This document shows positions 920 to 36,521 of a stretch of DNA of 37,646 nucleotides, one piece after another. The stretch covers positions 1 to 37,646 of the forward strand of contig NZ_PVTI01000030.1 of assembly GCF_003002895.1 (NCBI RefSeq), read 5' to 3'. This stretch comes from Knoellia remsis. GTDB taxonomy: Bacteria; Actinomycetota; Actinomycetes; Actinomycetales; Dermatophilaceae. Under the pieces are notes generated by a model. That model saw only the letters and a list, made by a program, of their open reading frames with translations, was not told the origin of the DNA and did not search any database. Both the position numbers and the translations under genes were made by a program. Position 1 is the first letter of the stretch. Each line of letters opens with the position of its first letter.

Positions 920-3900
920 TCAGGTCACGGTGACGGTCACCGTCGCGAGCGCGTCGTTGCGGCTGTCGCCGACGAGGACACGGACGGCATAGGTGCCCGG
1001 TGACGCCCACGTGTGGCTGCCGCCGACCGTCGCGGTGCCGTCGGCGGCGACGGTGACCCTGGCGTCCTCGGTCACCGAGCCGTCGCCCCAGGCGACGCGC
1101 GCGGTGTAGCCGCCTGCCGCGGGCACGCCGCCCGAGGCTGTCGCGAGGGTGATGGTGGTCGCGGTGCCGGCCTTCGCGGCCGGGGCGGCACCGCCCGTGA
1201 CGGCGAGGGGGGACCCGTTGTCGGCGACGGCGAAGACGTGGATGCGGCCCTCCGTCGCCGGGTCACCGGCCTGTGTCGGCAGCGTCACTGACGCGACGGT
1301 CTTGCCCGCCGGGATCGTCAGCGGCGCGGTCGCGAAGAGCGTGAGCTTGCACGAGTCGGTGCTCGTCCCGTTGAGGCGCGAGTCCATCCGGACGGCGACG
1401 AGGTTGCCGAACTGCGGTGCGCCACACCAGTCCCCGTACTGGATCTTGTATGCCGTGCTCGTGCCGTCCGTGAACGTCACCGTGCCCGTCGTGTCCTGGT
1501 TCTTCTGGGTGGCGGTCCCGATGAGGCTGAGCTGGGTGGCTCCCGGGGCGAGCGTCACGGGGAGCGTCTGGCCCGCGCCGGTGGCGTTGTCCTTGCCGCC
1601 CTTCTCGGTGCCCGGCATCGAGAAGCGAAGGTCCGTGCCCGGGACGGTGAGGAGGCGACCGGGAACCGCGCCCGCGGCATACAGGGCCGGACGAGAGATG
1701 CCCGCCTGGTCCCCATCGCAGGCGATCTCCTCGCCCGGCTCGCCGATGCACCGTAGGTCGAACCCGCTCGCGTACGACGGGGCGACGCGCTGGTGGATGA
1801 GTGCCGATCCGACGGCCGATCCCTCGGCGCGCTTGTCGCGCACGGTGACCGTGACGTCGTAGGGGCCCGCCGCGGCATACGTGTGCGTGCCGCTGACGAC
1901 GTAGGTGCCGAGGTCACCGGCCTTGACCGTCCCGGTCGAGCTCGTGCCGTCGCCCCAGGCGATCGTCGCGGTGAAGTCCTGCGCGGAGGCGTTCTTGGGC
2001 GCGACGAAGGTCGCGACCGTGCCGCTCACCTGCTCGTCCTCGACGCCTTCGAGCTGGGCCCCGGCGGTGACGGCGAGCTTGGTGTTCGCCGCGTGCGAGC
2101 CGTCGGTGAGGAACTCGACCTCGGAGATCGTCGGGCTGCCGCTGCTCGCCGTGACCACGAGTCGGTAGGCCTGGTAGGTCCCGGGCGTCGCGATCCTGAA
2201 CGGCCTCGTCTGGGTGCGCCACGCGAACGTCTGCGCGGTGCGCGTGTCGAGGGTCGTCCAGGTGCGCCCGTCCTTGGAGCCCTCGACGCGCCACGCACTC
2301 GGGTCGCCGGCGGCGGCGCCGTTGGTGATCGTGTAGAACGTCGCCCGCTGGCCGACGCCGGAGATCGTGTGGGTGATCGTCGGGGTGGGGCTCGAGAAGG
2401 TCGTCGCCGTCCGCGAGTCGTTGTCGACGAGGGCCTTGGCATCGGTCGCCTGCGGCGCGACCGTCGTGCCCTTGCCGGCGCCGGTCACGTCGACGAGCGG
2501 TGCGGGCTTGTCATCACCCTTGGTGAGCGAGGGCGGCGCGGCGTTCGGCTTGGATCCGTAGGCAGACGGCGTCGCGCCCATCTGGAACTCGATCGACGCG
2601 GCGCCGGACAGCATCGAGTGCGGGATCGAGGTGTTCGGCCGGCCCTCGCCGTTGACCTTGAGCTTCTGGACGTAGATGTTGCGCTCGGAGTTGCCCGGCG
2701 CGGTGACGACGAGGTCACCGCTCGCGCGCTTCACCGTGGCCTTGGTGAACTTCGGCGAGCCGACGGCCCACTCGGCCGAGCCGACCTGGAGCGGGTAGAT
2801 GCCCAGCGAGGAGAGGATGTTCCACGCCGACATCTCGCCGTTGTCCTCGTCGCCGGGGTAGCCCTGGCCGATGTCGCCACCGGTGTAGAGCCGGCGCAGC
2901 ACCTCGCGGACCTTCTCGGCCGTGCGGAACTGCTTGCCGGTGAAGTTGTACATGTACGGGAGGTGGTGCGAGACCTGGTTGCTCATCCCGAACTGACCCA
3001 TGCGCACGTCACGCGCCTCGATCATCTCGTGGATCGTGCCGCCGTAGGAGCCGGGCTTCGTCGCGGTCTCGGGCGTCGTGAAGAACTCGTCGAGCTTGTC
3101 GGCGAGCGCCTCGCGACCACCGAGCAGGTTGGCCAGTCCGTTGCCGTCCTGCGGCGCGTGGAAGGCGAAGTTCCACCCGTTCGTCTCGGTGTAGTTGCCG
3201 CCCCAGACCTCGGGGTCGAAGTTCTCGGCGAACTCACCCGAGGCCGAACGCCCCTGGAAGAAGCCGGTCTCGGGGTTGAACAGGTTGACGTATGCCGTGG
3301 CGCGCTTGAGGAAGTACTCGGACTCCTCCGCGAGGGTCGCCTTGCGCGACGCGGGCGTAGCCGGGTCGTCGGCGAGGGACTTGGCCTGGTTGCCGATGCC
3401 GAAGTCGTTGATGAGTCCCTCGAGACCCCACGACACGCTCTCGTGCGTGCTCTCGGGAGTCCAGCCGAGGAACGTCGACGTCGCGATGCCCTTGCGGCCG
3501 ACCGCGGACGTCGGCGGGAGGACGGTCGCGTTCTTCAGGGCGGCGTCGTAGGTCGAGAGCTTGTCCGGCAGGGGCACGCCCTTGACCTGGAGGTCGGCGA
3601 AGGACACGTCGGAGCTCGTGCCCGTCATGAGGTCGGCGTAGCCGGGGGAGGACCAGCGGGCGACCCAGCCGCCGTCGCGGTACTGCTGGACGAAGCCGTC
3701 GGCGATCTCGGCCGCGAACTCGGGGTAGAGCAGTGCGTAGGCCGGCCACACCGTCCGGTAGGTGTCCCAGAAGCCGTTGTTGACGTAGATCTTGCCGTCC
3801 TTGACCGCGGCGTTCGTCGTCGTCGCGGTGGCGCTGCCGGACTTCGGCGAGACCGGGCTCGCGTACTGGTAGCGCGGAGTGGTCGCGGTGCCGGTGTTCT

Positions 3901-5992
3901 CGAACTGGCTGTTGGGGTAGAGGTTGAGCCGGTAGAGGTTCGACATGAGGGTGCGCAGCTCGGTGTCCGAGGCGCCCTCGACCTGCACGACGCCGAGGCG
4001 GTCATCCCACGCCTTCTTGGCCGCGCCCTGGACGTCGGAGAACGAGCGGCCCTGGAGCTCGAGCGCGTGGTTGCGCTTGGCCTGGTCGAGCGAGATGAAG
4101 GACGTCGACAGCCGCAGCTCGACGTCACGGTCACTCGTCGTCGGGAAGGTCGCATAGCGGGTGCCCGTCCGGCCGCCGGGCGCCGTTCCGGACGCGCTGG
4201 CCGGCCGGTCGAAGACGCCGTAGACGAACATCCGGCTCCGGCCGACGGACAGGCCACTGCCGTTGTCGACCCAGCCGGTGAAGGTGCCGGTCGCGTTGTC
4301 GACGGTGAAGGAGCCGTTGTTGTCGACGGTGTCGATGACGAGGCTGCCGGTCGGCGCGCTGTCCGGGAAGGTGAAGCGGTAGACGCCCCCGTGGTCGGCC
4401 GGGGCGAGCTCGGCGGTGATGCCCGCGTCGAAGTTCACCCGGTAGTGGTCGGGGCGGGCCACCTCGGTCGCGTGGTCGTAGGACAGCTGACGGCCGGTGG
4501 CGCTGCCCGTCGGCACACCCTGCGTGATCGACGGCATGACCGACATCTGGTTGCGGTCACCCATCCACGGGGACGGCTCGTGCGAGATGCCGAGCCCCTG
4601 GAGCATCGGCCGGTTCTGCGCGTTGTTGCCCGCCTGGTAGTAGTACTCCCACGACTGCGACGTCGCGTTGCTCACGGGAGTGAAGAACGTGAACCCGTTG
4701 GGGACGGCGGAGATCGGGAGGTTGTTGCCGCGCGAGAACGACCCGGAGCTGTTCGTGCCGCGCCGGATGTCCACGGCATACGTGGGGCTCGAACGGTCGA
4801 TCGTCGCCGGGCTCGGGTCGATGGTGACGTCGTCGACCCAGCCGCCGAAGAAGGTCTTCTCCGTCGCGCCGGCGGTGTTGTCGTAGCCGACGAGGATGGC
4901 GTCGACGGTCTTGCCGGCGGCCTTCGGGCCGAGGTCCACGGTCACCGAGTTCCACTGCGCGGCATACAGGGTCTTGCCCACGCCCTGCTCGTTCGGTGAC
5001 GCGACGCTGCTGTAGGCGTCGACGGCGCCGAGGTCGGACAGCAGGGTGCCGTCGGTGAAGCGCAGGTCGACCGCGGCATACGTCGACGGGTAGGTGAGGT
5101 CGCCGTTCACCATGTCCGGGATGATCTTGTAGCTCAGCTGCGACCGGTCGCCGACGGGGACGTCGACGTCGAAGATCCGGTTCCACGCGTAGCCACGACC
5201 GGCGGCGGTGTGCCGGCCGGAGTAGCGCAGCGCCTTGACCCCGGTCCAGCCCGCGAGGGACTTGATGTTGTAGCCCGAGCGCGGCCCGGCCCCGACGGTG
5301 GTGACCATCGGTTGGGCGCCCGGCTCAGTGGGGGTGAACTCGCCGAAGAGGCCCCAGTCGGCGAGCTGGACGATGCCACCGCCCTGGTTCGCGGTGACGT
5401 CCAGCCGGTAGTACGTGTAGTCGCCCGGGGTGGCGATCGTGAAGGTCTGCTTCTGGAAGCGGGAGGTCCACGTGAGACCGGTGCGACGGTCGAGGTCGGT
5501 CCACGTCGTGCCGTCGGTCGAGCCCAGGAGGGTGACGTCGCGCGGGTCGCGCTCGGGGGCGTCGTTGGCCGACGTGAGGCTGTAGGTGAGCGCGCGCTTG
5601 GGTCCGCTCAGCTGGTAGCGCACCCAGCCGGTCGAGGTGAACGCGAGCCACTTCGTGTCCGGGTTGGAGTCGCTGAGGTTCGCGGCCGTCTCCCCGGGTG
5701 GGTTCTCGGCGCTCGCGGTGATGGCGGCGATCGAGCCGAGGAGGCTGCCGTCCGCGGCCACCCCACCGGTGACGTTCTGCTGCATCGGGCCGTCCGGGCC
5801 GGCCTCGACGGTCGACTCCAGCGGCTGCGGCTGCCCGGTCTCGAACGACGTCGACCACGCGCCACCCGCGGTGCTGTTCGTGCCGGCAGGCGAGGCGCTC
5901 GCCACGCCGGTCACCGTGGCCGACGCGCCGACGAGCGCGAGCGTCAGGACGGAGGCGGCAAGGCCTCGTGGGAACACAGTGGTCAGGGGCAT
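920..5992 (-). CDS. Secreted multidomain GH92 alpha-mannosidase
   Basis: Large exported glycoside hydrolase of family GH92, whose known members are calcium-dependent exo-alpha-mannosidases acting on N-glycans or mannans. Starting at the ATG at 5992 (GGAGGA a few bases upstream) gives 1690 residues with a signal peptide at once (Arg, then a hydrophobic stretch ending ASA); the longer frame to 6082 adds a non-signal leader and was rejected. Domains in order: signal peptide 1-33; F5/8-type discoidin-like module around 80-200; GH92 N-terminal beta domain about 400-620; catalytic barrel about 640-1110 with FWDTYRT near 739, NYTETNGW near 930 (likely acid Glu) and GDEDNGEMSAW near 1045 (likely base Asp pair); a second discoidin-like module near 1170-1290; two PKD-like domains near 1310-1400 and 1600-1690. 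There is no LPXTG or membrane anchor. It is divergent from a LacI regulator and a mannose-6-phosphate isomerase, which supports a mannose substrate. Domain borders are approximate. Confidence 0.93.
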   Translation of the reverse strand: MPLTTVFPRGLAASVLTLALVGASATVTGVASASPAGTNSTAGGAWSTSFETGQPQPLESTVEAGPDGPMQQNVTGGVAADGSLLGSIAAITASAENPPGETAANLSDSNPDTKWLAFTSTGWVRYQLSGPKRALTYSLTSANDAPERDPRDVTLLGSTDGTTWTDLDRRTGLTWTSRFQKQTFTIATPGDYTYYRLDVTANQGGGIVQLADWGLFGEFTPTEPGAQPMVTTVGAGPRSGYNIKSLAGWTGVKALRYSGRHTAAGRGYAWNRIFDVDVPVGDRSQLSYKIIPDMVNGDLTYPSTYAAVDLRFTDGTLLSDLGAVDAYSSVASPNEQGVGKTLYAAQWNSVTVDLGPKAAGKTVDAILVGYDNTAGATEKTFFGGWVDDVTIDPSPATIDRSSPTYAVDIRRGTNSSGSFSRGNNLPISAVPNGFTFFTPVSNATSQSWEYYYQAGNNAQNRPMLQGLGISHEPSPWMGDRNQMSVMPSITQGVPTGSATGRQLSYDHATEVARPDHYRVNFDAGITAELAPADHGGVYRFTFPDSAPTGSLVIDTVDNNGSFTVDNATGTFTGWVDNGSGLSVGRSRMFVYGVFDRPASASGTAPGGRTGTRYATFPTTSDRDVELRLSTSFISLDQAKRNHALELQGRSFSDVQGAAKKAWDDRLGVVQVEGASDTELRTLMSNLYRLNLYPNSQFENTGTATTPRYQYASPVSPKSGSATATTTNAAVKDGKIYVNNGFWDTYRTVWPAYALLYPEFAAEIADGFVQQYRDGGWVARWSSPGYADLMTGTSSDVSFADLQVKGVPLPDKLSTYDAALKNATVLPPTSAVGRKGIATSTFLGWTPESTHESVSWGLEGLINDFGIGNQAKSLADDPATPASRKATLAEESEYFLKRATAYVNLFNPETGFFQGRSASGEFAENFDPEVWGGNYTETNGWNFAFHAPQDGNGLANLLGGREALADKLDEFFTTPETATKPGSYGGTIHEMIEARDVRMGQFGMSNQVSHHLPYMYNFTGKQFRTAEKVREVLRRLYTGGDIGQGYPGDEDNGEMSAWNILSSLGIYPLQVGSAEWAVGSPKFTKATVKRASGDLVVTAPGNSERNIYVQKLKVNGEGRPNTSIPHSMLSGAASIEFQMGATPSAYGSKPNAAPPSLTKGDDKPAPLVDVTGAGKGTTVAPQATDAKALVDNDSRTATTFSSPTPTITHTISGVGQRATFYTITNGAAAGDPSAWRVEGSKDGRTWTTLDTRTAQTFAWRTQTRPFRIATPGTYQAYRLVVTASSGSPTISEVEFLTDGSHAANTKLAVTAGAQLEGVEDEQVSGTVATFVAPKNASAQDFTATIAWGDGTSSTGTVKAGDLGTYVVSGTHTYAAAGPYDVTVTVRDKRAEGSAVGSALIHQRVAPSYASGFDLRCIGEPGEEIACDGDQAGISRPALYAAGAVPGRLLTVPGTDLRFSMPGTEKGGKDNATGAGQTLPVTLAPGATQLSLIGTATQKNQDTTGTVTFTDGTSTAYKIQYGDWCGAPQFGNLVAVRMDSRLNGTSTDSCKLTLFATAPLTIPAGKTVASVTLPTQAGDPATEGRIHVFAVADNGSPLAVTGGAAPAAKAGTATTITLATASGGVPAAGGYTARVAWGDGSVTEDARVTVAADGTATVGGSHTWASPGTYAVRVLVGDSRNDALATVTVTVT

Positions 5993-6098
5993 GACGTCCT
6001 CCGGCAGCTCACGCGGTCCGCGACCGGTCGTCGTCGACCGGCCGTCCTGCCGACCTTGGCTGTATGCCGGGTGGTCCGGCAAGACGAGGACCCCACCT

Positions 6099-6198: not shown

Positions 6199-7245
6199 AT
6201 GACAGCGTTGTCGGGAAAACGGACATCGGCGCGGCCCACGATGGCCGACGTCGCCGCGGAGGCCCATGTCTCCGTCAAGACCGTCTCCCGGGTCGTGAAC
6301 CGTGAGCCCGGCGTCCGTCGCGACACCGAGCTGCGGGTGCGTGCCGTCATCGACCGGATCGGCTTCATGCGTCACGACGGCGCGCGCATCCTGCGCCAGG
6401 GCCGCACCCAGACCATCGCCCTCGTCGTCGAGGACCTCGCCAACCCGTTCTACTCGCAGATCAGCGCGGCGGTCGAGCGCGAGGCCAGGATCCGCCAGTA
6501 CCAGCTCATCACCGCCTCCGCCGAGGGCTCGCCGACCCGGGAACGCGGGGTCCTCGAGAGCCTCATCAACCGCCGGGTCGACGGTCTCGTCGTGGTGCCG
6601 GCAGGCGAGCGGCCCGCCGTGGACCCGACGGTCGCCGCGAGCGGGACACCCATCGTCTACGTCGACAGGCCGGTGCGCGGGCAGGCCACGGACACCGTCA
6701 TCAGCGACAACCCCGGCGGGGTGCGCAGCGCCGTCGAGCACCTCGTGGCCAACGGGCACCGCCGCATCGCCCTCCTCGGGGACGATGCGGAGTTCTGGAC
6801 GGCCCGCCAACGGCGCGAGGCGTTCGTCCAGATCCACGACGCGCTCGGGCTGCCCGGTGACGCGAAGGTCTCCATGGGTCCGCACACGGTCGACTCGCTG
6901 ACCGAGCGGCTCGCCACGTGGTCCCGGGAGCGCAGTCCCGTCACGGCCGTCATCACCGGCAACAACCGGGTGACCCTCGCCGCCCTGCACGCCATGCGAC
7001 GCTCCGGCGTCGAGATGGGGCTCGTCGGCTATGACGACTTCGAGCTGGCCGACCTCATCGAACCGGCCGTCACCGTCGTCAACCAGGACCCCACGTCGAT
7101 GGGGCAGAAGGCCGCGCTGCAGCTCATCGCCCGCATCCTCGGGGACGAGTCACCCGCCCAGACCGTCGTCATGCCCACCCGCCTCATCGTCCGGGAGTCG
7201 GGGCGGCTCCCGGCATCCCGCTCTCTCCGGAAGGCCAGCTCATGA
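6199..7245 (+). CDS. LacI-family transcriptional regulator
   Basis: A 348-residue LacI/GalR-type repressor. The N-terminal helix-turn-helix is clear at about 14-36 (MADVAAEAHVSVKTVSRVVN), followed by the hinge and a periplasmic-binding-like sensor domain starting at QTIALVVEDLANPFYSQI and containing VDGLVVVPAG and a C-terminal GYDDFELADL segment typical of the family. The start chosen is the ATG at 6199; the frame is open further upstream, but those residues do not resemble the family. ATG at 6241 is a possible shorter start. The gene lies divergent to the GH92 mannosidase and overlaps the manA start by ATGA, so it most likely senses mannose or a mannose phosphate and controls both. The ligand is inferred from position only. 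Confidence 0.9.
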   Translation: MTALSGKRTSARPTMADVAAEAHVSVKTVSRVVNREPGVRRDTELRVRAVIDRIGFMRHDGARILRQGRTQTIALVVEDLANPFYSQISAAVEREARIRQYQLITASAEGSPTRERGVLESLINRRVDGLVVVPAGERPAVDPTVAASGTPIVYVDRPVRGQATDTVISDNPGGVRSAVEHLVANGHRRIALLGDDAEFWTARQRREAFVQIHDALGLPGDAKVSMGPHTVDSLTERLATWSRERSPVTAVITGNNRVTLAALHAMRRSGVEMGLVGYDDFELADLIEPAVTVVNQDPTSMGQKAALQLIARILGDESPAQTVVMPTRLIVRESGRLPASRSLRKASS

Positions 7246-8300
7246 CCAGCACCGACATCGCGAGTGACACCGAGCTCGCGGCGGGAGGGCCCGTCATCGC
7301 CCACCTGGCGCCGAACATCCCGCGCCGCTTCTACCGCGGCGGCGAGCGCATCTTCGCCTTCCGCAGTGCCGCCACCCCGGGCGACTTCGACGGCCGCCGC
7401 CCGGAGGACTGGCTCGGCTCGACGGCCCGCCTCTTCGCCGAGGGCGGCGGCGGGGTGACGACCCTCGCCGACGGCACCGAGCTGCCCGACGCGCTGGCGG
7501 CCGACCCGGTCGGCTGGCTCGGTGCGGCGCATGCCGCCCGCTTCGGTGGTGACCCCAACCTGCTCACCAAGCTCCTCGACAGCGGGGAACGGCTCCCCGT
7601 GCACTCCCACCCGAGCCGAGACTTCGCCAAGGCGCACCTCGACTGCGACCACGGCAAGACCGAGGCCTGGATCGTGCTCGCCGCCGAGCCCGGTGCGACG
7701 GTGTGGGTCGGCTTCCGCGACGAGCTGGGCGAGGACGAGCTGGCCGAGCTCGTCGACGCCCAGGACGAGCGGCTGCTCGAGGCGTGCAACCCCATCTCGG
7801 TGTCCGCCGGTGACGCCGTCCTCGTGCCCGCGGGCCAGCCACACGCCATCGGCGAAGGCGTCCTCGTCCTCGAGCTGCAGGAGCCCACCGACTTCTCCGT
7901 GATGCTCGAGCACGAGCGGTTCGGCCTCGAGCTCGACCACGCCTTCCTCGGCCTCGACCGGCCCCTGGCCCTGCGCAGCGTCGACCACGGCCCGCTGTCG
8001 GCCGAACGGATCGCGTCGCTGCGCACCCGCTGGGCCGACGTCGAGGGTCAGGGCCCGGCACTGCCCGACGAGGGGAGCGAGTACTTCCGCGCCGAGGTCG
8101 TGCGACCGGTGGGCGCTCCCGTGACGGTCGACGCGGCATACGCGGTCGTCGTCGCCGTCGCGGGACGCGGCGCGATCGACTCCGCCCAGGGGTCGCTCGC
8201 CGTCGCCGCCGGCGACGTCCTCCTCGTACCGCACGCCGCAGGACCGCTCACCGTGAGCGGCGACGTCACCCTCATCCGCTGTATGCCGCCCGCGCCCTGA
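7242..8300 (+). CDS. manA: Class I mannose-6-phosphate isomerase
   Basis: Cupin-type zinc enzyme interconverting mannose 6-phosphate and fructose 6-phosphate, taking released mannose into glycolysis. Of 352 residues, the metal-binding signature is visible: PVHSHPSRDFAKAHLD near residues 119-134 (His pair), GKTEAW shortly after (Glu), and PAGQPHAIGEG near 198-208 (His). An N-terminal FYRGGERI motif and the DPNLLTKLLD segment also fit the family. The start ATG overlaps the regulator's stop (ATGA), so the two genes are translationally coupled. The C-terminal cupin half is less conserved. Bacterial and eukaryotic class I enzymes use the same fold; other sugar-phosphate isomerases of the fold cannot be excluded, but the mannosidase neighbour supports this call. 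Confidence 0.88.
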   Translation: MTSTDIASDTELAAGGPVIAHLAPNIPRRFYRGGERIFAFRSAATPGDFDGRRPEDWLGSTARLFAEGGGGVTTLADGTELPDALAADPVGWLGAAHAARFGGDPNLLTKLLDSGERLPVHSHPSRDFAKAHLDCDHGKTEAWIVLAAEPGATVWVGFRDELGEDELAELVDAQDERLLEACNPISVSAGDAVLVPAGQPHAIGEGVLVLELQEPTDFSVMLEHERFGLELDHAFLGLDRPLALRSVDHGPLSAERIASLRTRWADVEGQGPALPDEGSEYFRAEVVRPVGAPVTVDAAYAVVVAVAGRGAIDSAQGSLAVAAGDVLLVPHAAGPLTVSGDVTLIRCMPPAP

Positions 8301-8327: not shown

Positions 8328-8344
8328 TATCGGGTTACCCGATA
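8328..8344. promoter_or_regulatory. Perfect 17-bp palindrome between convergent genes
   Basis: TATCGGGTTACCCGATA reads as two 8-bp arms around a single central T. It lies 27 bases after manA and just before a large terminator hairpin. With a one-base centre it looks more like a protein-binding operator than an RNA hairpin, yet no start codon is near on either strand. Confidence 0.5.
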
Positions 8345-8348
8345 CTCT

Positions 8349-8388
8349 CCGCCCGCGCCCGAGAAGCCTTCTCGGGTCGAGCGGGCGG
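8349..8388. terminator. Bidirectional hairpin terminator between manA and S4 gene
   Basis: A nested hairpin: outer arms CCGCCCGC (8349-8356) and GCGGGCGG (8381-8388), inner arms CCCGAGAA (8358-8365) and TTCTCGGG (8369-8376) with a GCC loop. All 16 base pairs are perfect, and it sits between two converging genes. There is no U-tract, which is usual in high-GC actinobacteria. Confidence 0.75.
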
Positions 8389-8415
8389 AAGTCGGGTGGA
8401 GCGGGCGGGCGCGGC

Positions 8416-8637
8416 TCAGGCGTCGATCGCGACGCGGACGGTCTCACCGGCGTAGGTCACCGTGTCGCCGTCACGCAGCTGGCGGCCCCGGCGGGTCTCG
8501 ACCTCGCCGTTGACCTCGACCTCGCCGGACTCGATGACAGCCCGCGCGTCGGCGCCGTCCTCGACGAGGCTCGCGAACTTCAGCAGCTGGCCGAGGCGGA
8601 TGCTGTCGCCGGTGATCGGGATGTCGGTGGTTGCCAC
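8416..8637 (-). CDS. Small S4-domain RNA-binding protein
   Basis: A 73-residue protein made almost wholly of one S4 RNA-binding domain, recognisable from IRLGQLLKFASLVEDGADARAV followed by IESGEVEVNGEVETRRGRQL and DGDTVTYAGETVRV. This is the YbcJ/YaaA-like stand-alone S4 type, thought to bind structured RNA, probably ribosomal. The start is the GTG at 8637, which has a TACGCT box ending six bases upstream and no Shine-Dalgarno, so the mRNA is probably leaderless. It is convergent with manA and lies downstream of selB on the same strand, separated by 57 bases. A link with selenocysteine insertion is not supported by anything beyond position. Confidence 0.85.
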   Translation of the reverse strand: MATTDIPITGDSIRLGQLLKFASLVEDGADARAVIESGEVEVNGEVETRRGRQLRDGDTVTYAGETVRVAIDA

Positions 8638-8643
8638 GATGTC

Positions 8644-8649
8644 AGCGTA
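8644..8649 (-). promoter_or_regulatory. Candidate -10 box, leaderless S4 gene
   Basis: TACGCT on the minus strand ends six bases before the GTG start at 8637. It overlaps a copy of the CGGCATAC octamer (8647-8654). Confidence 0.5.
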
Positions 8650-12069: not shown

Positions 12070-12076
12070 GAGCGCA

Positions 12077-27700: not shown

Positions 27701-29288
27701 GACTGGTGTCGTCGTTGACCCCGAGCTCGACCCGAGTGCCACGTATGCCGTGGACCCGGCCCGCGTCCGTCGGCTCGCCGCCGACGTGGTCGCCTCGCCG
27801 GGCGCCGAGCACCATGTGAGCCACAGCCCCATGACCGGAGCGCCGGTGGCGTCGCTGCCGGTCTCGAGCGCGGAGGACGTCGCCGTCGCGATCAGCACGG
27901 CCCGGGCAGCCCAGCGCGCCTGGGCGGCCACGGACGTCGAGCGCCGGGCCGCGGTGCTCATGCGCTTCCACGACCTCGTCCTCGAGCGCCAGGTCGAGCT
28001 GCTCGACCTCATCCAGCTCGAGTCGGGCAAATCGCGGGCGCACGCCTTCGAGGAGATCGCCGACTGTGCCATCGCCGCCCGGCACTACGGCCGCCGCGCC
28101 GCGGACTACCTCGCCGACCTCCGTGTCCCCGGCGTCATCCCCGTGCTGTCGCAGGCCGTCGAGAGCCGTCGCCCCAAGGGCGTCGTCGGGGTCGTCTCAC
28201 CGTGGAACTACCCGCTCAGCCTGGCCATCACCGACGCCATGCCGGCCCTCGTCGCCGGCAACGCCGTGGTCCTGCGCCCGGACCAGCAGACCTCGCTCAC
28301 CGCACTCGCCGGGGTCGAGCTGCTGCGGGAGGCAGGCCTGCCGGACGGCGTCCTCCAGGTCGTCCTCGGACCAGGTGCCTCGACCGGGCAGGCGGTCGTC
28401 GACCGGGCCGACTACATCTGCTACACCGGCTCCACCCCGACCGGCCGCCGGGTCGGACAGTCCGCCGCCGAGCGGCTCGTCGGGTTCAGTCTCGAGCTCG
28501 GCGGCAAGAACTCCCTCTACGTCGCCGACGACGCCGACCTCGACCGGGCCGTCGCCGGTGCCGTGCGGGCGAGCTTCGCCTCCGCCGGGCAGCTGTGCAT
28601 CAGCGCCGAGCGGATCCTCGTGCACCGCGACGTCAAGGACGAGTTCGTCACCCGCTTCGTCGACGCGGTCGAGCAGCTGCGACTCGGCACCTCCCTCACC
28701 TACGACTACGACATCGGCTCGCTCGTCGGCCAGCGCCAGCTCGATACCGTGACCGCGCACGTCGAGGACGCCCGGAGCAAGGGCGCCGTCGTCCTCACCG
28801 GGGGGCGGGCGCGCCCCGATGTCGGACCGTTCGTGTACGAGCCGACGGTCCTCACCGGCGTGACCGAGGCGATGGTGTGTCGCAACGACGAGACCTTCGG
28901 ACCGGTCGTCTCGATCTACGAGGTCGGCTCCGACGACGAGGCGGTCGCCTTCGCCAACGACACCGAGTACGGCCTCAACGCGTCGGTGTGGACGCGCGAC
29001 GTCGCGCGTGGTCGCCGGGTCGCCGCGCGCATCCGCACCGGGACGGTCAACATCAACGAGGCGTATGCCGCTGCGTGGGGTTCCATGGGTGCCTCCATGG
29101 GCGGGATGAAGGCCTCCGGCATCGGCCGCCGCCACGGACGCGAGGGCATCCTCAAGTACACCGAGAGCCAGAACATCACCGCGCAGCGGCTCGTGCCCAT
29201 CGGGGAAATGCCCGGGCTGTCAGCGCAGCGCTACGCGCAGGTCATGACGCTCGCCCTCAAGGGCATGCGCCGGCTCGGGTTCCGGTGA
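27699..29288 (+). CDS. gabD2: NADP-type succinate-semialdehyde dehydrogenase
   Basis: Aldehyde dehydrogenase of 529 residues, by resemblance the actinobacterial GabD2 type that oxidises succinate semialdehyde to succinate. The catalytic residues are in place: Asn in VVSPWNYPLSLAITDAMP, Glu in FSLELGGKNSLYV and Cys300 in SAGQLCISAERI. The FGPVVSIYEV and GLNASVWTRD segments and the C-terminal GRRHGREGILKYTESQNI motif are typical. The ATG at 27699 has a -10 box six bases upstream (leaderless) within a palindrome. The stop overlaps the GTG of the GMC oxidoreductase, so the two form an operon. The exact substrate is inferred from family and conserved neighbourhood. Confidence 0.88.
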   Translation: MTGVVVDPELDPSATYAVDPARVRRLAADVVASPGAEHHVSHSPMTGAPVASLPVSSAEDVAVAISTARAAQRAWAATDVERRAAVLMRFHDLVLERQVELLDLIQLESGKSRAHAFEEIADCAIAARHYGRRAADYLADLRVPGVIPVLSQAVESRRPKGVVGVVSPWNYPLSLAITDAMPALVAGNAVVLRPDQQTSLTALAGVELLREAGLPDGVLQVVLGPGASTGQAVVDRADYICYTGSTPTGRRVGQSAAERLVGFSLELGGKNSLYVADDADLDRAVAGAVRASFASAGQLCISAERILVHRDVKDEFVTRFVDAVEQLRLGTSLTYDYDIGSLVGQRQLDTVTAHVEDARSKGAVVLTGGRARPDVGPFVYEPTVLTGVTEAMVCRNDETFGPVVSIYEVGSDDEAVAFANDTEYGLNASVWTRDVARGRRVAARIRTGTVNINEAYAAAWGSMGASMGGMKASGIGRRHGREGILKYTESQNITAQRLVPIGEMPGLSAQRYAQVMTLALKGMRRLGFR

Positions 29289-31063
29289 GCGACAACGGGA
29301 TCGGCGGCGAGGCCGCCGCTGCCGCAGACGTGCCGGGCACCGCAGGGACCGACGTCGACGTCGTCGTCATCGGCACCGGGTTCGGTGGGTCGGTCGCCGC
29401 GCTCCGGCTCGCGGAGAAGGGCTACTCGGTCCACATGCTCGAGGCGGGGCGCCGCTTCGAGGACGAGGACTTCGCGAAGACGTCCTGGGATACCCGCAAC
29501 TACCTGTGGGCGCCGCAGCTCGGCTGCTACGGCATCCAGCGGATCCACAAGCTGCCCGACGTCATGATCCTCGCCGGGGCGGGGGTCGGCGGTGGCTCGC
29601 TCAACTACGCGAACACCCTCTACGTCCCACCGGAGCCGTTCTTCCGCGACCGGCAGTGGGGCCACATCACCGACTGGCAGGCCGAGCTCGCCCCCCACTA
29701 CGACACCGCCCAGCGCATGCTCGGTGTCGTCGAGAACACCATCGAGGGGCCCGTCGAGCAGATCTGGCGCGAGGTGGCCGCGGACATGGGTGTGCCCGAG
29801 ACCTTCCACAAGACTCCCGTCGGGATCTACTTCGGCAAGCCGGGCGTCGAGGTGGACGACCCCTACTTCGGGGGAGCCGGGCCGAAGCGCAAGGGTTGCA
29901 CCCAGTGCGGCAACTGCATGGTCGGCTGTCGTCACGGCGCGAAGAACACGCTGCGCAAGAACTACCTCCACCTCGCCGAGAACCTCGGGGTCGTCATCGA
30001 GCCGATGCGCACGGTGACCCGGCTGGGAGTGGTGCCGGGCAGCGGAGGCGAGCGGCCGGCATACGAGACCTATCGGGTGCTGCACGAGCGGACCGGACCC
30101 GTGCCCGGCAAGGACCCTCGCGTCATCACCGCCCGGCACGTCGTCGTCGCGGCGGGCACGTGGGGGACCCAGACGCTGCTGCACACGATGGCGGCCGAGG
30201 GCGAGCTGCCCCGGATGTCGCGCCGGCTCGGCGAGCTGACCCGGACCAACAGCGAGGCGCTGCTCGGTGCCATGACCCAGCACGTCGACCCCAAAGCCGA
30301 ACTCGCACAAGGGATTGCGATCACGTCGTCGTTCCACCCGGACGCGGACACGCACGTCGAGAACGTCCGCTACGGCCCGGGATCGAACGCGATGGGACTG
30401 CTGTCGACGGTGCTCGTCCCCGGCGACACCGGGCGGCCGCGTCCGGTGGAGTTCGTCCTGTCGCTGCTGCGCGAGCCGCAGCAGCTGTTCAAGCAGTTCC
30501 CCATGACGCGCCGGTGGAGCGAGCGGATCATCATCGGGCTCGTCATGCAGACCCGCGACAACTCGCTGCGGGTGTCCGGCAAGCGCGGCCTCTTCGGGCG
30601 GGTCCGGCTCACGTCGACCCAGGGCCACGGCGAACCCAACCCCACCTTCATCAAGGCCGGGCACGAGGCGATGACCGCCGTGGCGCAGCGACTCCAGAAG
30701 CTCACCGGCGAGTACACCATCGCCGGAGGCACGTGGGGCGAGGTCTTCGACGTGCCGCTCACCGCGCACTTCCTCGGCGGCGTCGTCATCGGTGACTCGC
30801 CGGAGACCGGCGTCATCGACGCCTACCACCGGCTCTGGGGGCACCCCGGCATCTCCGTCGTCGACGGGTCGGCGATCTCGGCGAACCTCGGGGTCAACCC
30901 GTCGCTGACGATCACCGCACAGTCCGAGCGGGCGATGTCGCTGTGGCCGAACCGCGGTGAGCTCGACCCGCGGCCCGCGCAGGACGAGGCCTACCGCAGG
31001 CTCGACCCGGTGCCCGCCAAGAACCCGGCTGTGAGCACGATGAGAGTGCGCAGCGCCGGCTGA
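29285..31063 (+). CDS. GMC-family FAD oxidoreductase, cholesterol-oxidase-like
   Basis: A 592-residue flavoprotein resembling mycobacterial ChoD. The Rossmann FAD motif VVVIGTGFGGSVAALRLAEKG is split over about 23-43, GAGVGGGSLNYANTLYVPP follows near 100-118, and the C-terminal GVIDAYHRLWGHPGISVVDGSAISANLGVNPSLTI region (in two parts) closes the FAD site with the expected His and Asn. A ferredoxin-like Cys set, GCTQCGNCMVGCRHGAKNTL, lies near residue 204 and is present in this subgroup. GTG start overlaps the gabD2 stop (GTGA). Despite the ChoD label, members of this group often do not oxidise cholesterol; the physiological substrate is unknown. Confidence 0.87.
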   Translation: MSDNGIGGEAAAAADVPGTAGTDVDVVVIGTGFGGSVAALRLAEKGYSVHMLEAGRRFEDEDFAKTSWDTRNYLWAPQLGCYGIQRIHKLPDVMILAGAGVGGGSLNYANTLYVPPEPFFRDRQWGHITDWQAELAPHYDTAQRMLGVVENTIEGPVEQIWREVAADMGVPETFHKTPVGIYFGKPGVEVDDPYFGGAGPKRKGCTQCGNCMVGCRHGAKNTLRKNYLHLAENLGVVIEPMRTVTRLGVVPGSGGERPAYETYRVLHERTGPVPGKDPRVITARHVVVAAGTWGTQTLLHTMAAEGELPRMSRRLGELTRTNSEALLGAMTQHVDPKAELAQGIAITSSFHPDADTHVENVRYGPGSNAMGLLSTVLVPGDTGRPRPVEFVLSLLREPQQLFKQFPMTRRWSERIIIGLVMQTRDNSLRVSGKRGLFGRVRLTSTQGHGEPNPTFIKAGHEAMTAVAQRLQKLTGEYTIAGGTWGEVFDVPLTAHFLGGVVIGDSPETGVIDAYHRLWGHPGISVVDGSAISANLGVNPSLTITAQSERAMSLWPNRGELDPRPAQDEAYRRLDPVPAKNPAVSTMRVRSAG

Positions 31064-31081: not shown

Positions 31082-32488
31082 ATGGACAGCAGCACCTCCC
31101 ATGGCAGCCCGTGGCTCGCGGACCTCGACGAGCGGCCGTCGCTGTCGACGCTGCTCACCGGGCACGAGGACACCGATGTCGCCGTCGTCGGCGCCGGCAT
31201 CGTCGGGCTGACGACGGCACTGCTCGCGCTGCGCGACGGGTTGCGCGTCGTCGTCCTCGAGGGCGCTCGCGTCGGCACCGGCACGACAGGGCACACGACC
31301 GGCAAGGTGACCGCCCAGCACTCGCTCGTCTACGCCGACCTCCTTGACCGCGTGGGCGTCGAGAAGGCACAGGCGTATGCCGACGCCAACGTCGCGGGGA
31401 TCGCGCTCGTGGAGCGGCTCGCCGACGAGCTCGGCATCGAGTGCGAGCTGACGCGGACGGACGCGCTGGCCTACGGGCGGTTCGCCTCGACGCGGTCTCG
31501 CATCGAGCGGGAGGTCGAGGCCGCGGTGCGGCTCGGACTGCCGGCGTCCTTCGTCACCGAATCCGACCTGCCGTTCGAGATCGACTCCGGCGTGGTCTTC
31601 GCCGACCAGCTGCACCTGCACGCCGGCCGGTATGCCGTCGGGCTGGCTCGCGCGGTCCGGGGCGCCGGCGGGGTCATCCACGAGGGGGCTCGGGTGACGG
31701 ACATCGCCGAGGGAGACGGCCGTGTCGAGCTGACGACGTCCTCGGGCACGGTCAACGCCGACCACGCCGTCGTCGCGACGTTGCTGCCGCCGGGGCTGAT
31801 GGGTGGCTTCTTCGCCCGCACCCGGCCGAAGGGGTCCTACGGCCTCGCGGTGCAGCTGTCCTCGCCGCCGCCCGCGTCCATGACGATCTCAGTCGATGAG
31901 CCGGCGCGCTCGACGCGTCCCTGGACGCCCCCGGGGGGTGGCCACGGGCTCGTCGTCGTCGGCAACGGCCACGACGTCGGCGACGGCAGCGACGGGCTCG
32001 AGAAGGTGGCCGACCTCGAGCGGTGGACCCGGGCCACCTTCCCGGTGACGTCGGTCGACCACCGGTGGTTCGCCCACGACTACACGACTCCCGATACGGT
32101 GCCCTATGTCGGTCGCCCGCCGTTGGCCGAGAACACTGCTGTCGCAACGGGATTCGGCAAGTGGGGGCTGGCTGCGGGAAGCGCTGCAGCGGTGATGGTC
32201 ACCGACGCGATCGCCGGACGGGACAATGCGTGGGCGGAGATGTTCGACGCCTCCCGCCGCGACACCCTGCGGGCGCTGCCGAAGCTCGCGGTCGACAACG
32301 CCAAGGTCGGCGCCGACCTCGTGACCGGACAGCTGCGCACCGGCGCGCCGCGGTGCACCCACCTCGGCTGTCGGCTGCGCTGGAACGACGCCGAGACGAC
32401 GTGGGACTGCTACTGCCACGGTTCTCGGTTCGGCCAGGACGGCGAGGTCCTCACCGGCCCGGCGACGCGCCCGCTCGATCTGGGCTGA
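31082..32488 (+). CDS. FAD-dependent oxidoreductase fused to a Rieske domain
   Basis: A DAO-type flavoprotein of about 468 residues with a C-terminal Rieske [2Fe-2S] domain. The FAD-binding motif [20 protein letters not shown] lies near 32-51, followed by [20 protein letters not shown], typical of the group. The Rieske ligands are CTH (Cys and His) near 425 and CYCHGSRF near 443, the normal C-X-H and C-X2-H spacing. The start may be the ATG at 31082 or a GTG at 31067. Only 18 bases separate it from the GMC gene, so it is probably the last gene of the gabD2 operon. It may pass electrons from an unknown amine or acid to the Rieske centre. It converges with the ABC gene eight bases away. Confidence 0.85.
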
Positions 32489-32496: not shown

Positions 32497-34302
32497 TCAG
32501 TCCTCGTCGCGCCAGGCGCGCCACAGGGCGGCGTAGGCGCCGTCGCGCTCCATGAGCTCGTCGTGCGTGCCGAGCTCGGCGATCCGGCCGCCGTCGACGA
32601 CGCACACCCGGTCCGCGTCGTAGGCGGTGTGCAGCCGGTGGGCTATCGCGACCACCGTTCGTCCCTGCGTCACTGCCGCGAGGGAGCGTTCAAGGTGCCG
32701 GGCGGCACGCGGGTCGAGCAGCGACGTCGCCTCGTCGAGGACGAGGGTGTGCGGGTCGGCGAGGACGAGCCGGGCCAGCGCGAGCTGTTGCGCCTGTGAG
32801 TCGGTGAGCGCGTGCCCGCCGGACCCGACGGTCGTGTCGAGTCCCTCGGGGAGCGCACGCACCCAGGCGTCGGCATCGACGGCCGCGAGGGCGGCATACA
32901 CCTCGTCGTCGGAGGCGCCCGGCCGCGGCAGGCGCAGGTTCTCGCCCACGGTGCCCACGAAGACGTGGTGCTCCTGGGTGACGAGCGCGACCTCGCCGCG
33001 GAGTCGCGCGAGGGTGAGGTCGACCAGGGGCACTCCGCCGACGGTGACTCGCCCGGTGCGGGGACCGTCGATGCCGGCGATGAGCTGGCCGAGGGTGGAC
33101 TTGCCGGCGCCGGAGGGGCCGACGATGGCGAGGCGTTCGCCGGGGCGCAGGGTGAGCGAGACGCCGTGGAGGACGTCGCGGCCGTCGCGGTAGGAGTAGC
33201 GGACGTCCTCGACCGCGATGCCGTCGCCGTGGGGCTCCCCGCCCGTGGCGATGCGGTCCGGCGGTACCTCGCCGACGCCGAGAACGCGCGCGAGAGACGT
33301 TGCCGCGAACTGGATCTCGTCGAGCCAGCTGATCAGGTCCCCGAGGGGGTCGAGCATCTGCTGGATGTAGAGCGTCACCGCGGTCGCGGCGCCGATGGTG
33401 ACGTAGCCGTTCCACGACAGCCAGCCACCCCACAGCACCGACACGGCCACGGGCAGGAAGAAGCCGATCTCCAGCCACGGGAACCACCGCATCCGGAGCG
33501 AGACGCCGAGCCGTTCGGCCCGCGCGGCCTCATCGAGCGCGTCGTCGAACCGCTCGCGGCGGCGCTCGCTCAGGCTGAGGGCATCCATGGTGCGCAGGCC
33601 CTCGATCGTCTCTGCGCCAACGGAGTTCAGTCGGGCATAGCTCGCGTGCTCCCACAGGTAGACGCGACCGGCGCGGCGGAGGTACCACCGGCTCGAGGGG
33701 ACGTGCAGCAGCAGCGGAGTGAGCAGGGCGAGGGCCGCGAGTGGTGAGGTGAAGACTGCGGCGACGACGGTGGCGGTGACGGTCATGACGGACACGACGA
33801 TGGCCGGGATGCCGAACCGGATGACGTGGGTCATCGCGTCGATGTCGTTCGTCGTGCGCGCGACGAGGTCACCGGTGCCGGCACGCTCGATCGTCGAGAG
33901 CGGCAGCCGGACGGCGTCGCGGACGAAGTCCTCGCGCAGCCGCGCGAAGACGTGCTCGGACAGCACGAACGCCGCCCGCCGCGCGAACCACGTGAGCACC
34001 GTCTGGGCGAGGATCGCCGCGACGAGGACGCCGATGAGGACGTCGATGCGGCCGAGGTCGGCGCCGGTGCTGCTGCCGTCGCGGCCGGCGCGGGTGACCG
34101 TCTCGACGATCTGCCCGACGACCCACGGGCCGACGAGCCCGACGAGCGCCGCGAGCCCGTGCAGGACGAGGACGACGGCGAGCGGGCGCCGGTGCGAGCG
34201 CAGCAGGACGCGGACGTGCCTGGTCACGGTCTGCCGGGTCGCGATGGGCAGCGAGCGCCGGGCGTGGTCGGTCTCGCCGATGCGGGACAGGATCGGGGTC
34301 AT
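32497..34302 (-). CDS. ABC exporter half-transporter (membrane plus ATPase domain)
   Basis: A 601-residue type IV ABC half-transporter: about six membrane helices (40-310) followed by an ATPase domain (about 355-590). Walker A is GPSGAGKST, Q-loop VTQEHHVFVGTV, Walker B HTLVLDEATSLLD and the switch His in AIAHRL, all sound. The signature motif, normally LSGGQ, reads LTDSQ. It is thus one half of an asymmetric heterodimer, supplying the good Walker A and the poor signature. The partner is directly upstream and supplies LSGGQ with a degenerate Walker A, but is broken by a deletion. The substrate is unknown. Confidence 0.9.
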   Translation of the reverse strand: MTPILSRIGETDHARRSLPIATRQTVTRHVRVLLRSHRRPLAVVLVLHGLAALVGLVGPWVVGQIVETVTRAGRDGSSTGADLGRIDVLIGVLVAAILAQTVLTWFARRAAFVLSEHVFARLREDFVRDAVRLPLSTIERAGTGDLVARTTNDIDAMTHVIRFGIPAIVVSVMTVTATVVAAVFTSPLAALALLTPLLLHVPSSRWYLRRAGRVYLWEHASYARLNSVGAETIEGLRTMDALSLSERRRERFDDALDEAARAERLGVSLRMRWFPWLEIGFFLPVAVSVLWGGWLSWNGYVTIGAATAVTLYIQQMLDPLGDLISWLDEIQFAATSLARVLGVGEVPPDRIATGGEPHGDGIAVEDVRYSYRDGRDVLHGVSLTLRPGERLAIVGPSGAGKSTLGQLIAGIDGPRTGRVTVGGVPLVDLTLARLRGEVALVTQEHHVFVGTVGENLRLPRPGASDDEVYAALAAVDADAWVRALPEGLDTTVGSGGHALTDSQAQQLALARLVLADPHTLVLDEATSLLDPRAARHLERSLAAVTQGRTVVAIAHRLHTAYDADRVCVVDGGRIAELGTHDELMERDGAYAALWRAWRDED

Positions 34303-34305: not shown

Positions 34306-35659
34306 TCAGTCACCTTCTCCGCGCAGGACGATGCGCCGGTATGCCGGGTGCTCGCGCGAGAGGTCGCGGTGCGTCCCGTGGGCGGTCACCTTGCCGTGCT
34401 CGGCGACGAGGACGGTGTCGGCGCGATCGAGGAGCAGTGGGCTCGCCGTGACGAGGACGGTCGTGGCGCCGGCCCGGTGCTTCGGGAGCCGCTCGGCGAT
34501 ACGTGCCTCGGTGTGGGCGTCGACGGCGCTCGTCGGCTCGACGAGGACGAGAACCTCGGGGTCGCGCAGGAGGGCACGGGCGAGGGCGAGGCGCTGGCGC
34601 TGGCCGCCGGAGAGGGCGCGGCCGCGCTCCTCGAGCTCGCCGTCGAGCCGGCCGTCGACCGAGTCGATGGCGTCGGCCGCATCGGCGGTGTGCAGGGCGG
34701 CCCACAGCTCGGTGTCGTCGGCCCGGCCGCTCGGGTCGAGCTCGCCGCGCACCGGACCGCTGAAGAGGTACGGGTCGGACTCGGAGACGACGATGCGCCG
34801 GCGCACCTCCTCGATGGGGAGGTCGTCGAGGCTGGTGTCGCCCCAGGTCACGCCGTGCCGTCCGGGCACGATCCGGCCGAGGCGCGCCGCGATGGCCGCG
34901 GACTCCTCGGGGCGCGCCGACACGATGGCGGTGAGCTGGCCCGGCTCGATGCGCACGCCCGAGACAGGATCGACGAGCGGCCCATCCCCTGTCCCGATCC
35001 CACCCAATTGGACGGTTCGGGACGGACCGATCTGGGACGACGGGTGGTCGGGCTCGGCCGCGAGGATGGGGACGAGCCGGCCGGCCATGACCCGCGAGGT
35101 GATGAGCTTGTTGACGAACTCCGTCGCCGTCCGCAGTGGCATCGTGAGGAACGCGGTGTACCCGTAGAACGCGACGAGCTGCCCCGCGGAGATCTCGCCC
35201 GAGACCGCGAGGTGCGCGCCGAGGCCGGTGACCACGACGACGAAGATGCCGGGCAGCAGCACCTGCGCCGCGTCGAGCAGCGCCTGCACGGAGGCCATGC
35301 GGATGCCCGCGTCGCGCACGCGAGAGGACTGGCCGGCATACCGGCCGAGGAAGTTCTCCTCACCGCCCACGCCGCGCAACACGCGCAACCCGGCCACGGT
35401 GTCCGCGCCGAGCGCGGTGAGCCGGCCGGCCTGGTCGCGCTGCGCCTGCTGGCGCTTCTGCAGCGGACGCATGATGAGCGCCAGGGACGAGATGAGCAGC
35501 GGCCCGCCGACGAGCATGACGACACCGAGGAGCACCGAGCCGCGCAGCAGGATGACCGACACGACGACGAAGCCGGACCAGCCACAGGAGCAGGCGGTCG
35601 GCGTTCGTCGGGGGAGTGGCGTCTGGCTCCAGCTCGTAGGGCCACGTGGTCGTCGGCAT
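34306..35659 (-). pseudogene. Partner ABC half-transporter with internal deletion and frameshift
   Basis: The N terminus is readable from the ATG at 35659 (MPTTTWPYELEPDATPP, then RLLLWLVR). Near 35570-35580 the frame shifts and the sequence jumps to FVVVSVILLRGSVLLGVVML, which in full-length relatives lies about 130 residues further on, in the fourth membrane helix. About three helices are therefore lost and the remainder is out of frame with the start. From there 418 codons are intact to the stop at 34306. The ATPase part has SARPEES in place of Walker A, a good LSGGQRQRLALARAL signature, and VEPTSAVD at Walker B, the expected degenerate half of a heterodimer. The intact downstream gene lies three bases on. 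Confidence 0.8.
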
Positions 35660-35725
35660 CGCGTCCCTCACGCTAGGTGTGGCGGACGGGCTCGGGCCAC
35701 CGAGTTTCCGCTCAGGTGAGGCGTT

Positions 35726-35731
35726 TAGGCT
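35726..35731 (+). promoter_or_regulatory. -10 box of SURF1 gene
   Basis: TAGGCT ends seven bases before the GTG at 35739, in the divergent gap with the ABC pseudogene. It is identical to the guaB3 box. Confidence 0.5.
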
Positions 35732-35738
35732 GCGCTAC

Positions 35739-36521
35739 GTGCTCGAGTCCGCCCGCAAGCCGCGCAACCTCGCGCTGCTCGCGGTCGTCGTGCTCGTCGT
35801 CGTCGCGTTCATCCAGCTCGGCCGGTGGCAGCTCGGCGTCGCCGAGGACCAGTCCGCCAAGGACGCGCTCGAGAAGGCGCGCTCGCAGGCACCCGTGCCC
35901 GTGCAGACGCTGCTGCGGCCGCACCAGGACTTCCCGAACTCGTTGAGTGCGCGGCCGGTGTCGGCGACGGGGACGTTCGGCGCAGACCAGGTCATCGTCG
36001 CGAACCGGCGGCTCGAGGGGCGGACCGGCTATTGGGTCGTCGCGCCGTTGCGGGTCGAGACGACCGGGGCGACGCTGCCGGTGCTGCGGGGGTTCGTCTC
36101 GTCGCCGGAGGACGCGCCGCCGGTGCCGCGGGGGACGGTCACCGTGAGTGGTGGGCTGGCTCCGCCGGAGAGCCCGTATGCCGGTGACGCGCCTCCCGAG
36201 GGTCAGCTCGGCTCGATCGACACCTCGGTCCTCGTGGGCCGCTGGCCGGGGCAGCTGTACAACGCGTTCGTCTTCCAGGAGGCCGAGTCGCCTACTCCCG
36301 CAGCGGAGTTCGTGGGTTCGATGCAGCGGGTGCCCACTCCGGTCGGTGACTCGGGGATCAGGGGTCGCAACGCGGCATACGCGCTGCAGTGGTGGGTCTT
36401 CGCGGCGTTCGCGCTGTACATGTGGTGGCGGATCGTGCGCGAGGACCGGCGTGAGGACGAGGCGGCGCGGGCCGCGCAGCAGGCTCCCAGAGAGCCGGGG
36501 GACAATGAGGGACGTGACTGA
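35739..36521 (+). CDS. SURF1-family cytochrome oxidase assembly protein
   Basis: A 260-residue membrane protein with one helix at each end (ALLAVVVLVVVAFIQLGRWQL near 12-32 and WWVFAAFALYMWW near 225) and an extracytoplasmic middle domain, the SURF1/Shy1 layout. The family helps assemble haem-copper cytochrome c oxidase. Typical pieces are FIQLGRWQL, VSATGTF, VIVANRRLEGRTGYWVVAPL and LPVLRGFV. The start is the GTG at 35739, matching the position of the first helix; the frame is open further upstream without family likeness. It is followed by a DUF3817 gene with a short overlap, a pairing seen in many actinobacteria. Confidence 0.9.
   Translation: MLESARKPRNLALLAVVVLVVVAFIQLGRWQLGVAEDQSAKDALEKARSQAPVPVQTLLRPHQDFPNSLSARPVSATGTFGADQVIVANRRLEGRTGYWVVAPLRVETTGATLPVLRGFVSSPEDAPPVPRGTVTVSGGLAPPESPYAGDAPPEGQLGSIDTSVLVGRWPGQLYNAFVFQEAESPTPAAEFVGSMQRVPTPVGDSGIRGRNAAYALQWWVFAAFALYMWWRIVREDRREDEAARAAQQAPREPGDNEGRD

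Follow-up and report, generated by a model that had tools for sequence, protein, structure and literature searches.

A densely repeated, strand-neutral octamer in Knoellia remsis and much of its family: a candidate DNA uptake sequence in Gram-positive bacteria

The stretch of DNA analysed here (the window: 37,646 nucleotides, contig 30 of the draft genome of Knoellia remsis, which comprises 3,573,222 bases in 62 contigs) carries 35 copies of the octamer CGGCATAC, 18 on the forward and 17 on the reverse strand, spread from position 1448 to position 36380. The best explanation, and probably the right one, is that CGGCATAC is a DNA uptake sequence read by a machine composed of a Tad pilus, ComEA and ComEC, with an origin independent of the tags of Neisseria and Haemophilus; its uptake role, its receptor and the drive behind it are what we infer from the comparison of genomes. 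In its full form the proposal is one to which we incline only slightly: CGGCATAC would be a third, independent uptake sequence and the first among Gram-positive bacteria; its reader would be a minor pilin of the Tad/Flp type and not a type IVa pilin, and dialects as well as losses of pilus and motif would run across 53 genera. A DNA uptake signature had been among the possibilities raised in the initial annotation of the window, and it is supported by the excess of the word, its lack of strand bias, its enrichment between genes, its occurrence across a clade in which dialects and losses are seen, its conservation, its scarcity in a conjugative element and the presence of competence genes. One article (PMC12616744) places uptake sequences in two Gram-negative families, the Neisseriaceae and the Pasteurellaceae; no description of an uptake-type motif in actinobacteria was found in the titles and opening lines of abstracts of the open-licence papers listed, and a report elsewhere is possible. 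Genomes, genera and stretches of DNA are designated below by G, g and L followed by a number, the K. remsis genome being G000.

In 100 dinucleotide-preserving shuffles of the window, CGGCATAC occurs 0.51 times on average and at most four times; no 8-mer of the window is more exceptional, 35 copies being found where a second-order Markov model predicts 0.85, and a recount agrees with the 36 GGCATAC cores initially reported, 35 of them extended to the full octamer. The whole genome holds 3,277 copies (1,655 on one strand and 1,622 on the other), to be compared with 276 copies (162 and 114) of a control word made by reversing the order of the letters. In a 418 kb sample of this genome, composed of the window and 20 further stretches with genes called by a simple script, 394 copies are found where Markov models with the motif masked predict 3.9-5.4 and a third-order model without masking predicts 22; the 368 genes called in the sample contain 265 copies, as against 20.5 (standard deviation 4.4, largest count 34 in 200 shuffles) under within-gene shuffling of synonymous codons. 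The genome-wide comparison with Markov and codon-based expectations, suggested at the outset as a check, places the observed count far above both, and the enrichment extends beyond the window; the excess of CGGCATAC is not explained by composition, codon usage or amino-acid order.

The distribution of the word was surveyed in 186 genomes from 53 genera of one GTDB family (Dermatophilaceae/Intrasporangiaceae), sorted by hand into about 114 motif-rich genomes (users of dialects included), 67 motif-poor and 5 intermediate ones, with g10, g15 and g52 on the borderline. Searches with ComEC against named genomes assign the window to Knoellia, K. subterranea being the closest (82% over the query). 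All nine Knoellia genomes carry 1,971-3,277 copies (control word, 54-276), and 31 genera are motif-rich by these classes, with between a few hundred and 4,724 copies, the maximum being found in G099. Phycicoccus (g46; 12 genomes, 18-35 copies) and g27 (16 genomes, 9-38 copies) are motif-poor; the latter is probably Janibacter, and four named Janibacter loci amounting to 76 kb contain no copy at all. Poor species occur also within rich genera (G008 in g4, G083 in g32 and G113 in g41). In the order-level survey, 361 genomes of 19 other families reach at most 180 copies (G468, where the control word has 195), and ratios of motif to control of up to about 4 are met only at low counts (e.g., 39 against 10 in G429). 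Comparison with related genera, likewise proposed initially, reveals an enrichment common to much of the family and not shared by the other 19 families.

In some lineages the word differs by one letter. The four genomes of g13 all have more of CCGCATAC (511-1,204 copies) than of CGGCATAC (153-322); elsewhere in the family CCGCATAC mostly stays at some tens of copies, counts rising as high as 476 in G086 and in part of g40 and g41. G047 (g22) holds 3,135 copies of CGGCATTC together with 1,025 of CGGCATAC; CGGCATTC is found 730 times in G046 and at most 388 times in any of the other 184 family genomes. A 21 kb sample of Flexivirga caeni contains CGTCATAC alongside CGGCATAC. The variants CCGCATAC and CGGCATTC mirror the dialects of the DNA uptake sequence (DUS) of Neisseriaceae, where a genome may likewise carry two dialects side by side. 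Three GC-rich candidate dialects, CGGCATCC, CGGCGTAC and CCGCATCG, may be further dialects or codon effects and are not claimed as such; they were seen as strong octamers of single genomes, namely CGGCATCC in G178 (L152), CGGCGTAC in G015 (L155) and CCGCATCG in G082 (L151).

The window was aligned to the orthologous region of the eight other Knoellia genomes (15-22 kb covered in each, at 80-82% identity), every combination of genome and motif site being scored as one cell; these cells come from related genomes and hence are not independent. In coding sequence all eight letters are kept in 101 of 151 cells, against 19.2% for control 8-mers of matching codon phase taken within 300 bp. At conserved alanines, GCA persists in all 47 cells that lie inside the motif, as against 23 of 187 outside it; the corresponding figures for TAT are 54 of 81 and 20 of 59. 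CGGCATAC is kept at orthologous sites beyond the needs of the protein. Sites at which only a relative has the motif face sequences with at least two differences in 14 of 14 cells (4 positions). At the copies of the window, 48 coding cells are ungapped but not identical, and 40 of them likewise show two or more differences. Two or three synonymous changes could also produce this pattern.

The word is scarce in DNA of apparently foreign origin. In G078, a complete Knoellia genome sampled by 20 stretches (400 kb spread around the chromosome, about 10% of the genome), the 20 kb at 724-744 kb contain one copy, against a mean of 14.4 (Poisson probability 9e-6). This segment is an integrated conjugative element: it encodes an integrase of the phage type and a protein of 1,919 residues in which a TrwC relaxase domain is found. 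Further long stretches free of the motif (10.5 kb in G000; 8, 6 and 5 kb in G078) contain genes that by eye are insertion-sequence- and defence-like, one stretch (L187) being ordinary-looking.

As to the placement of the copies, the two strands are used alike in the window, in the whole genome and in the G078 sample (140 copies on the forward and 148 on the reverse strand); relative to GC skew, the latter are split between the G-rich strand (143) and the C-rich strand (145), so that CGGCATAC has no replication polarity, and the absence of strand bias initially proposed is borne out. The greater density between genes is found again as well, amounting to 2.60 copies per kb against 0.72 in genes in the G000 sample and to 1.28 against 0.64 in G078. 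In the G000 sample, 213 of the 265 genic copies occupy two of the six possible frames, in which they encode Ala-Tyr (GCA TAC) or Tyr-Ala (TAT GCC) with rare codons; the use of GCA, of TAT and, in the copy at 9279, of ATA is confirmed. The mean gaps between copies, 994 and 1,208, match the spacing of roughly 1 kb first estimated. With coefficients of variation of 1.03 in G000 and 0.86 in G078, the placement is hardly or not at all more regular than chance would give, and spacing was not used as evidence. A terminator stem with a copy in each arm had also been described; it lies around 25933-25961, and the stretch at 25905-25985 indeed folds at -59.2 kcal/mol (z -7.67), none of 200 shuffles doing as well. 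Outside the core, species agree mainly in a purine (A or G) at -1 and in C or G at +8. In intergenic DNA, the flank GGCGCGCGGA, at a match of at least 8 of 10 letters, accompanies 40 of 128 copies of the G000 sample and 2 of 62 in G078; an extended consensus with GGCGCGCGGA upstream, promising in G000, was dropped because G078 does not share the flank. No simple trend with the motif was seen among classes of genes defined by G+C content at third codon positions (GC3). The window contains the following copies of CGGCATAC, strands being given in brackets:

1448-1455 (-), copy in gene 920-5992 (-)
1675-1682 (+), copy in gene 920-5992 (-)
1873-1880 (+), copy in gene 920-5992 (-)
3290-3297 (-), copy in gene 920-5992 (-)
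4774-4781 (+), copy in gene 920-5992 (-)
4960-4967 (+), copy in gene 920-5992 (-)
5074-5081 (+), copy in gene 920-5992 (-)
6062-6069 (-), copy outside called genes
8134-8141 (+), copy in gene 7242-8300 (+)
8281-8288 (-), copy in gene 7242-8300 (+)
8647-8654 (-), copy outside called genes
9279-9286 (-), copy encoding an ATA codon, in selB-like gene 8695-10551 (-)
10779-10786 (-), copy in selA-like gene 10548-11894 (-)
11928-11935 (+), intergenic copy with GGCGCGCGGA upstream
13654-13661 (-), copy in gene 13147-14247 (-)
14907-14914 (-), copy in gene 14244-15317 (-)
14997-15004 (+), copy in gene 14244-15317 (-)
18883-18890 (+), intergenic copy
22034-22041 (-), copy in gene 21833-22879 (-)
22267-22274 (+), copy in gene 21833-22879 (-)
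22591-22598 (+), copy in gene 21833-22879 (-)
24005-24012 (+), copy in gene 22959-24593 (-)
25911-25918 (+), intergenic copy
25933-25940 (+), copy in the left stem arm, from folding
25954-25961 (-), copy in the right stem arm, from folding
25905-25985 (no strand), terminator-like stem with the inverted pair, between convergent genes 24788-25909 (+) and 25985-27556 (-)
27743-27750 (-), copy in gene 27699-29288 (+)
29063-29070 (-), copy in gene 27699-29288 (+)
30057-30064 (+), copy in gene 29285-31063 (+)
31375-31382 (-), copy in gene 31082-32488 (+)
31630-31637 (-), copy in gene 31082-32488 (+)
32892-32899 (+), copy in gene 32497-34302 (-)
34339-34346 (-), copy in gene 34306-35562 (-)
35334-35341 (+), copy in gene 34306-35562 (-)
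36176-36183 (-), copy in gene 35646-36521 (+)
36373-36380 (+), copy in gene 35646-36521 (+)

A search for com and pil competence genes, recommended in the initial annotation, led to comEA and comEC and to Tad loci. In K. remsis the comEA-comEC pair lies on contig 37 (L039:1522-4769) and carries SLBB and HHH_3 domains (Pfam). ComEC is matched in 180 of the 186 family genomes and T2SSF (TadB/TadC-type) proteins in 75 of 75 chosen genomes, so neither the presence of ComEC nor that of any Tad T2SSF protein offers a contrast by which rich and poor genomes could be told apart; the positions of the T2SSF matches reveal two Tad systems. The tad-1-like TadC, present in 165 of the 186 genomes, is found in 108 of the roughly 114 motif-rich ones and is absent from 15 of the 67 motif-poor ones. 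Two of the six motif-rich genomes without it are less than 80% complete, and the twenty-first genome lacking it is, by elimination, G181 (68% complete). All six genera without this protein are motif-poor, as are 14 of the 45 classed genera that have it (Fisher test, 0.002, with phylogeny ignored and classes made by hand), so that motif and tad-1-like locus are partly associated. At the prfB locus no tad-1 pieces were found in motif-poor G001, G022, G038, G070, G094, G095 and G096, nor in motif-rich G121 (75% complete), and partial tad-1 loci are present in motif-poor G064, G068 and G092; within Knoellia, the tad-1 locus of G077 lies apart from prfB, and G078 has no prfB in the 19 kb around tad-1. 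In g32, motif-poor G083 (19 copies) has tadA-tadB-tadC (L231:8557-11558), and in the 20 kb stretch examined short unrelated frames stand downstream of them in place of the four pilin genes, which follow tadABC in G084 and G085 (3,681 and 1,062 copies). It looks as if tad-1 is needed in the long run but is not sufficient for the motif. No gene both tracking the motif and present in G000 was found in the neighbourhoods of comEC (47 loci, 34 rich and 13 poor) or of tad-1 (20 loci, 13 rich and 7 poor). A column-wise association with motif status slightly higher for TadF/TadG than for TadA-C was not used, TadF and TadG being more variable and phylogeny being ignored.

With comEA, comEC and two Tad systems these bacteria resemble Micrococcus luteus, in which, according to PMC4322843, tad-1 and tad-2 are both required for transformation; the M. 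luteus papers searched for terms for uptake sequences gave no hit. The N-termini of TadE and TadF (PMC6370729) resemble, by eye, those encoded at L159:8811-9227 and 8339-8800. A surface receptor of the competence machine would bind CGGCATAC in free DNA; it would belong to the Tad/Flp pilus system, a minor pilin of the TadE/F/G type being the first candidate. The bound DNA would be handed through ComEA and ComEC and then recombined, and since tagged fragments would enter more often, uptake and recombination would maintain the old copies and spread new ones, both between genes and where the protein code permits, mostly at Ala-Tyr (GCA-TAC) or Tyr-Ala (TAT-GCC). A change of the receptor in a lineage would bring about a change of dialect, and the loss of the pilus or of its specificity would lead to the loss of the tag.

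The uptake signal sequence (USS) of Pasteurellaceae has a short core occurring about once per kb on both strands. CGGCATAC shares all of these properties; unlike the USS, to which it is unrelated in sequence, it has no visible A/T-rich flanks and only a weak flank signal outside G000. The likeness to the DUS of Neisseriaceae comprises thousands of strict copies, dialects, two dialects per genome, strong conservation, the pairing of some copies in terminator-like stems and relatives without the word; CGGCATAC differs from the DUS in its unrelated sequence, in its Gram-positive host nearly devoid of N-methylated type IV pilins, in the paucity of one-mismatch forms, in inverted pairs not generally in excess and in having an uptake role that is a proposal. 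Dialects, two dialects in one genome and relatives lacking DUS are described for Neisseriaceae (PMC3630211), and exact conservation in all aligned Neisseria genomes is put at 71% for the neisserial DUS by Treangen et al. (PMC2397512), who report that many DUS gains face unrelated sequence, taken as a sign of an origin by recombination, and that many one-mismatch forms exist besides; an excess of such forms is also described for H. influenzae and for N. gonorrhoeae (PMC1939737).

Several observations weigh against the uptake reading. The analogy with known uptake sequences is weakest where one-mismatch forms and close inverted pairs are concerned. The former are little in excess, the core being strict: 309 against 221-273 expected in G000 and 282 against 207-250 in G078, with expectations from a background in which the motif was masked. 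Pairs closer than 80 bp number 50 in G000, against 29 under random placement (25 of the 50 opposed), and 11 in G078, against 17 predicted (10 of the 11 opposed); close pairing is a feature of G000 and not a general one. N-methylated type IV pilins were found in just 1 of the 75 chosen genomes and were given up as receptor candidates; an orthologue of ComP is therefore unlikely. ComEC went unmatched in six genomes, every one of them motif-rich but also incomplete or fragmented, and the tad-1 TadC is missing from four motif-rich genomes at least 99% complete (G073, G074, G117 and G123); pieces of tad-1 persist near prfB in G073, in G117 (four pilin genes) and in G123, and a tadA piece lies at the edge of the stretch in G074, remnants that we read as the trace of a recent loss. 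A whole tad-1 locus is present in motif-poor Phycicoccus, g27, G008, G113 and G183, and the tad-1-like locus is whole in all 17 motif-poor loci examined, which had been chosen because TadC was present; since ComEC and a whole tad-1-like locus thus occur in motif-poor genomes too, possession of these genes is no predictor of the motif. Finally, when Tad proteins were compared column by column for association with motif status (25 rich and 17 poor), no clear receptor emerged.

Among the other explanations, it is unlikely, if still worth weighing, that a nucleoid or chromosome-organising protein binds CGGCATAC and that selection in cis maintains the sites, with dialects tracking the changes of that protein. 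Conservation, restriction to a family and absence from newly acquired foreign DNA would follow from this too. Described chromosome-organising sites number tens to hundreds and are oriented or regional, whereas CGGCATAC occurs about once per 1.1 kb on both strands, shows no replication bias, has many genic copies that call for rare codons and is lost in scattered lineages; dialects, losses and density are explained less well by a cis-acting site than by uptake. HIP1 and Chi are over-represented octamers, the former palindromic and the latter strand-biased. A Chi-type hot spot, promoting recombination once DNA has entered or while breaks are repaired, would belong to the same size class and have a high copy number, but the even split with respect to GC skew speaks against it, as it does against strand-biased sites like KOPS, and enrichment between genes would not be expected; we consider it very improbable. 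A shade less credible still is a methylation or restriction site or an iterated word like HIP1, even with HIP1 as a precedent for a hugely over-represented octamer: CGGCATAC is not palindromic, on which point the HIP1-like alternative of the initial annotation fails, and methylation by itself leaves the excess of copies unexplained.

Codon-pair or mutational bias, an interspersed repeat or an adapter artefact might be thought of, because CGGCATAC is contained in an Illumina primer sequence and the GGCGCGCGGA flank recurs at nearly a third of the intergenic copies sampled in G000. The flanks vary between copies, GGCGCGCGGA is almost lacking in G078, and the sites are conserved across other Knoellia; together, the codon shuffles and the conservation between orthologues exclude these as the main cause, and such an origin is barely conceivable. 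Should the uptake reading be correct, uptake sequences would have arisen a third time, among Gram-positive actinobacteria and together with another kind of pilus, and a large family of soil bacteria would be naturally transformable now or recently. The dialects and losses over 53 genera would allow one to ask why cells prefer their own DNA, it would become possible to address whether drive or selection builds such tags, and the way to tag DNA for laboratory uptake in these bacteria would be indicated.

Other features were seen alongside. At 8695-18688 the window carries a selenocysteine set made up of selB-, selA- and selD-like genes, a tRNA-Sec (11974-12069, reverse strand) and an operon resembling one for formate dehydrogenase. 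In the catalytic gene of this operon an in-frame TGA (18127-18125, reverse strand) precedes HSATVPGL, a context such as would be expected of a selenocysteine codon. Two small adjoining genes at 21131-21810 (-) resemble, by eye, a toxin-antitoxin pair of the VapBC type. A second over-represented word of G000, CAATCAGT (46 copies in 418 kb), forms clusters with copies often 30-42 bp apart (L051:229-496, L048:187-315, L046:17758-18993 and others) and constitutes a separate repeat family. The same genome contains arrays of CCAATTGG/ACCCAATT, mostly with a period of 66-76 bp and often at contig ends (L045:13-510, L046:25-455, L056:252-348 and L044:13216-13348), with one copy in the window at 35002-35011; some of their units include CGGCATAC.

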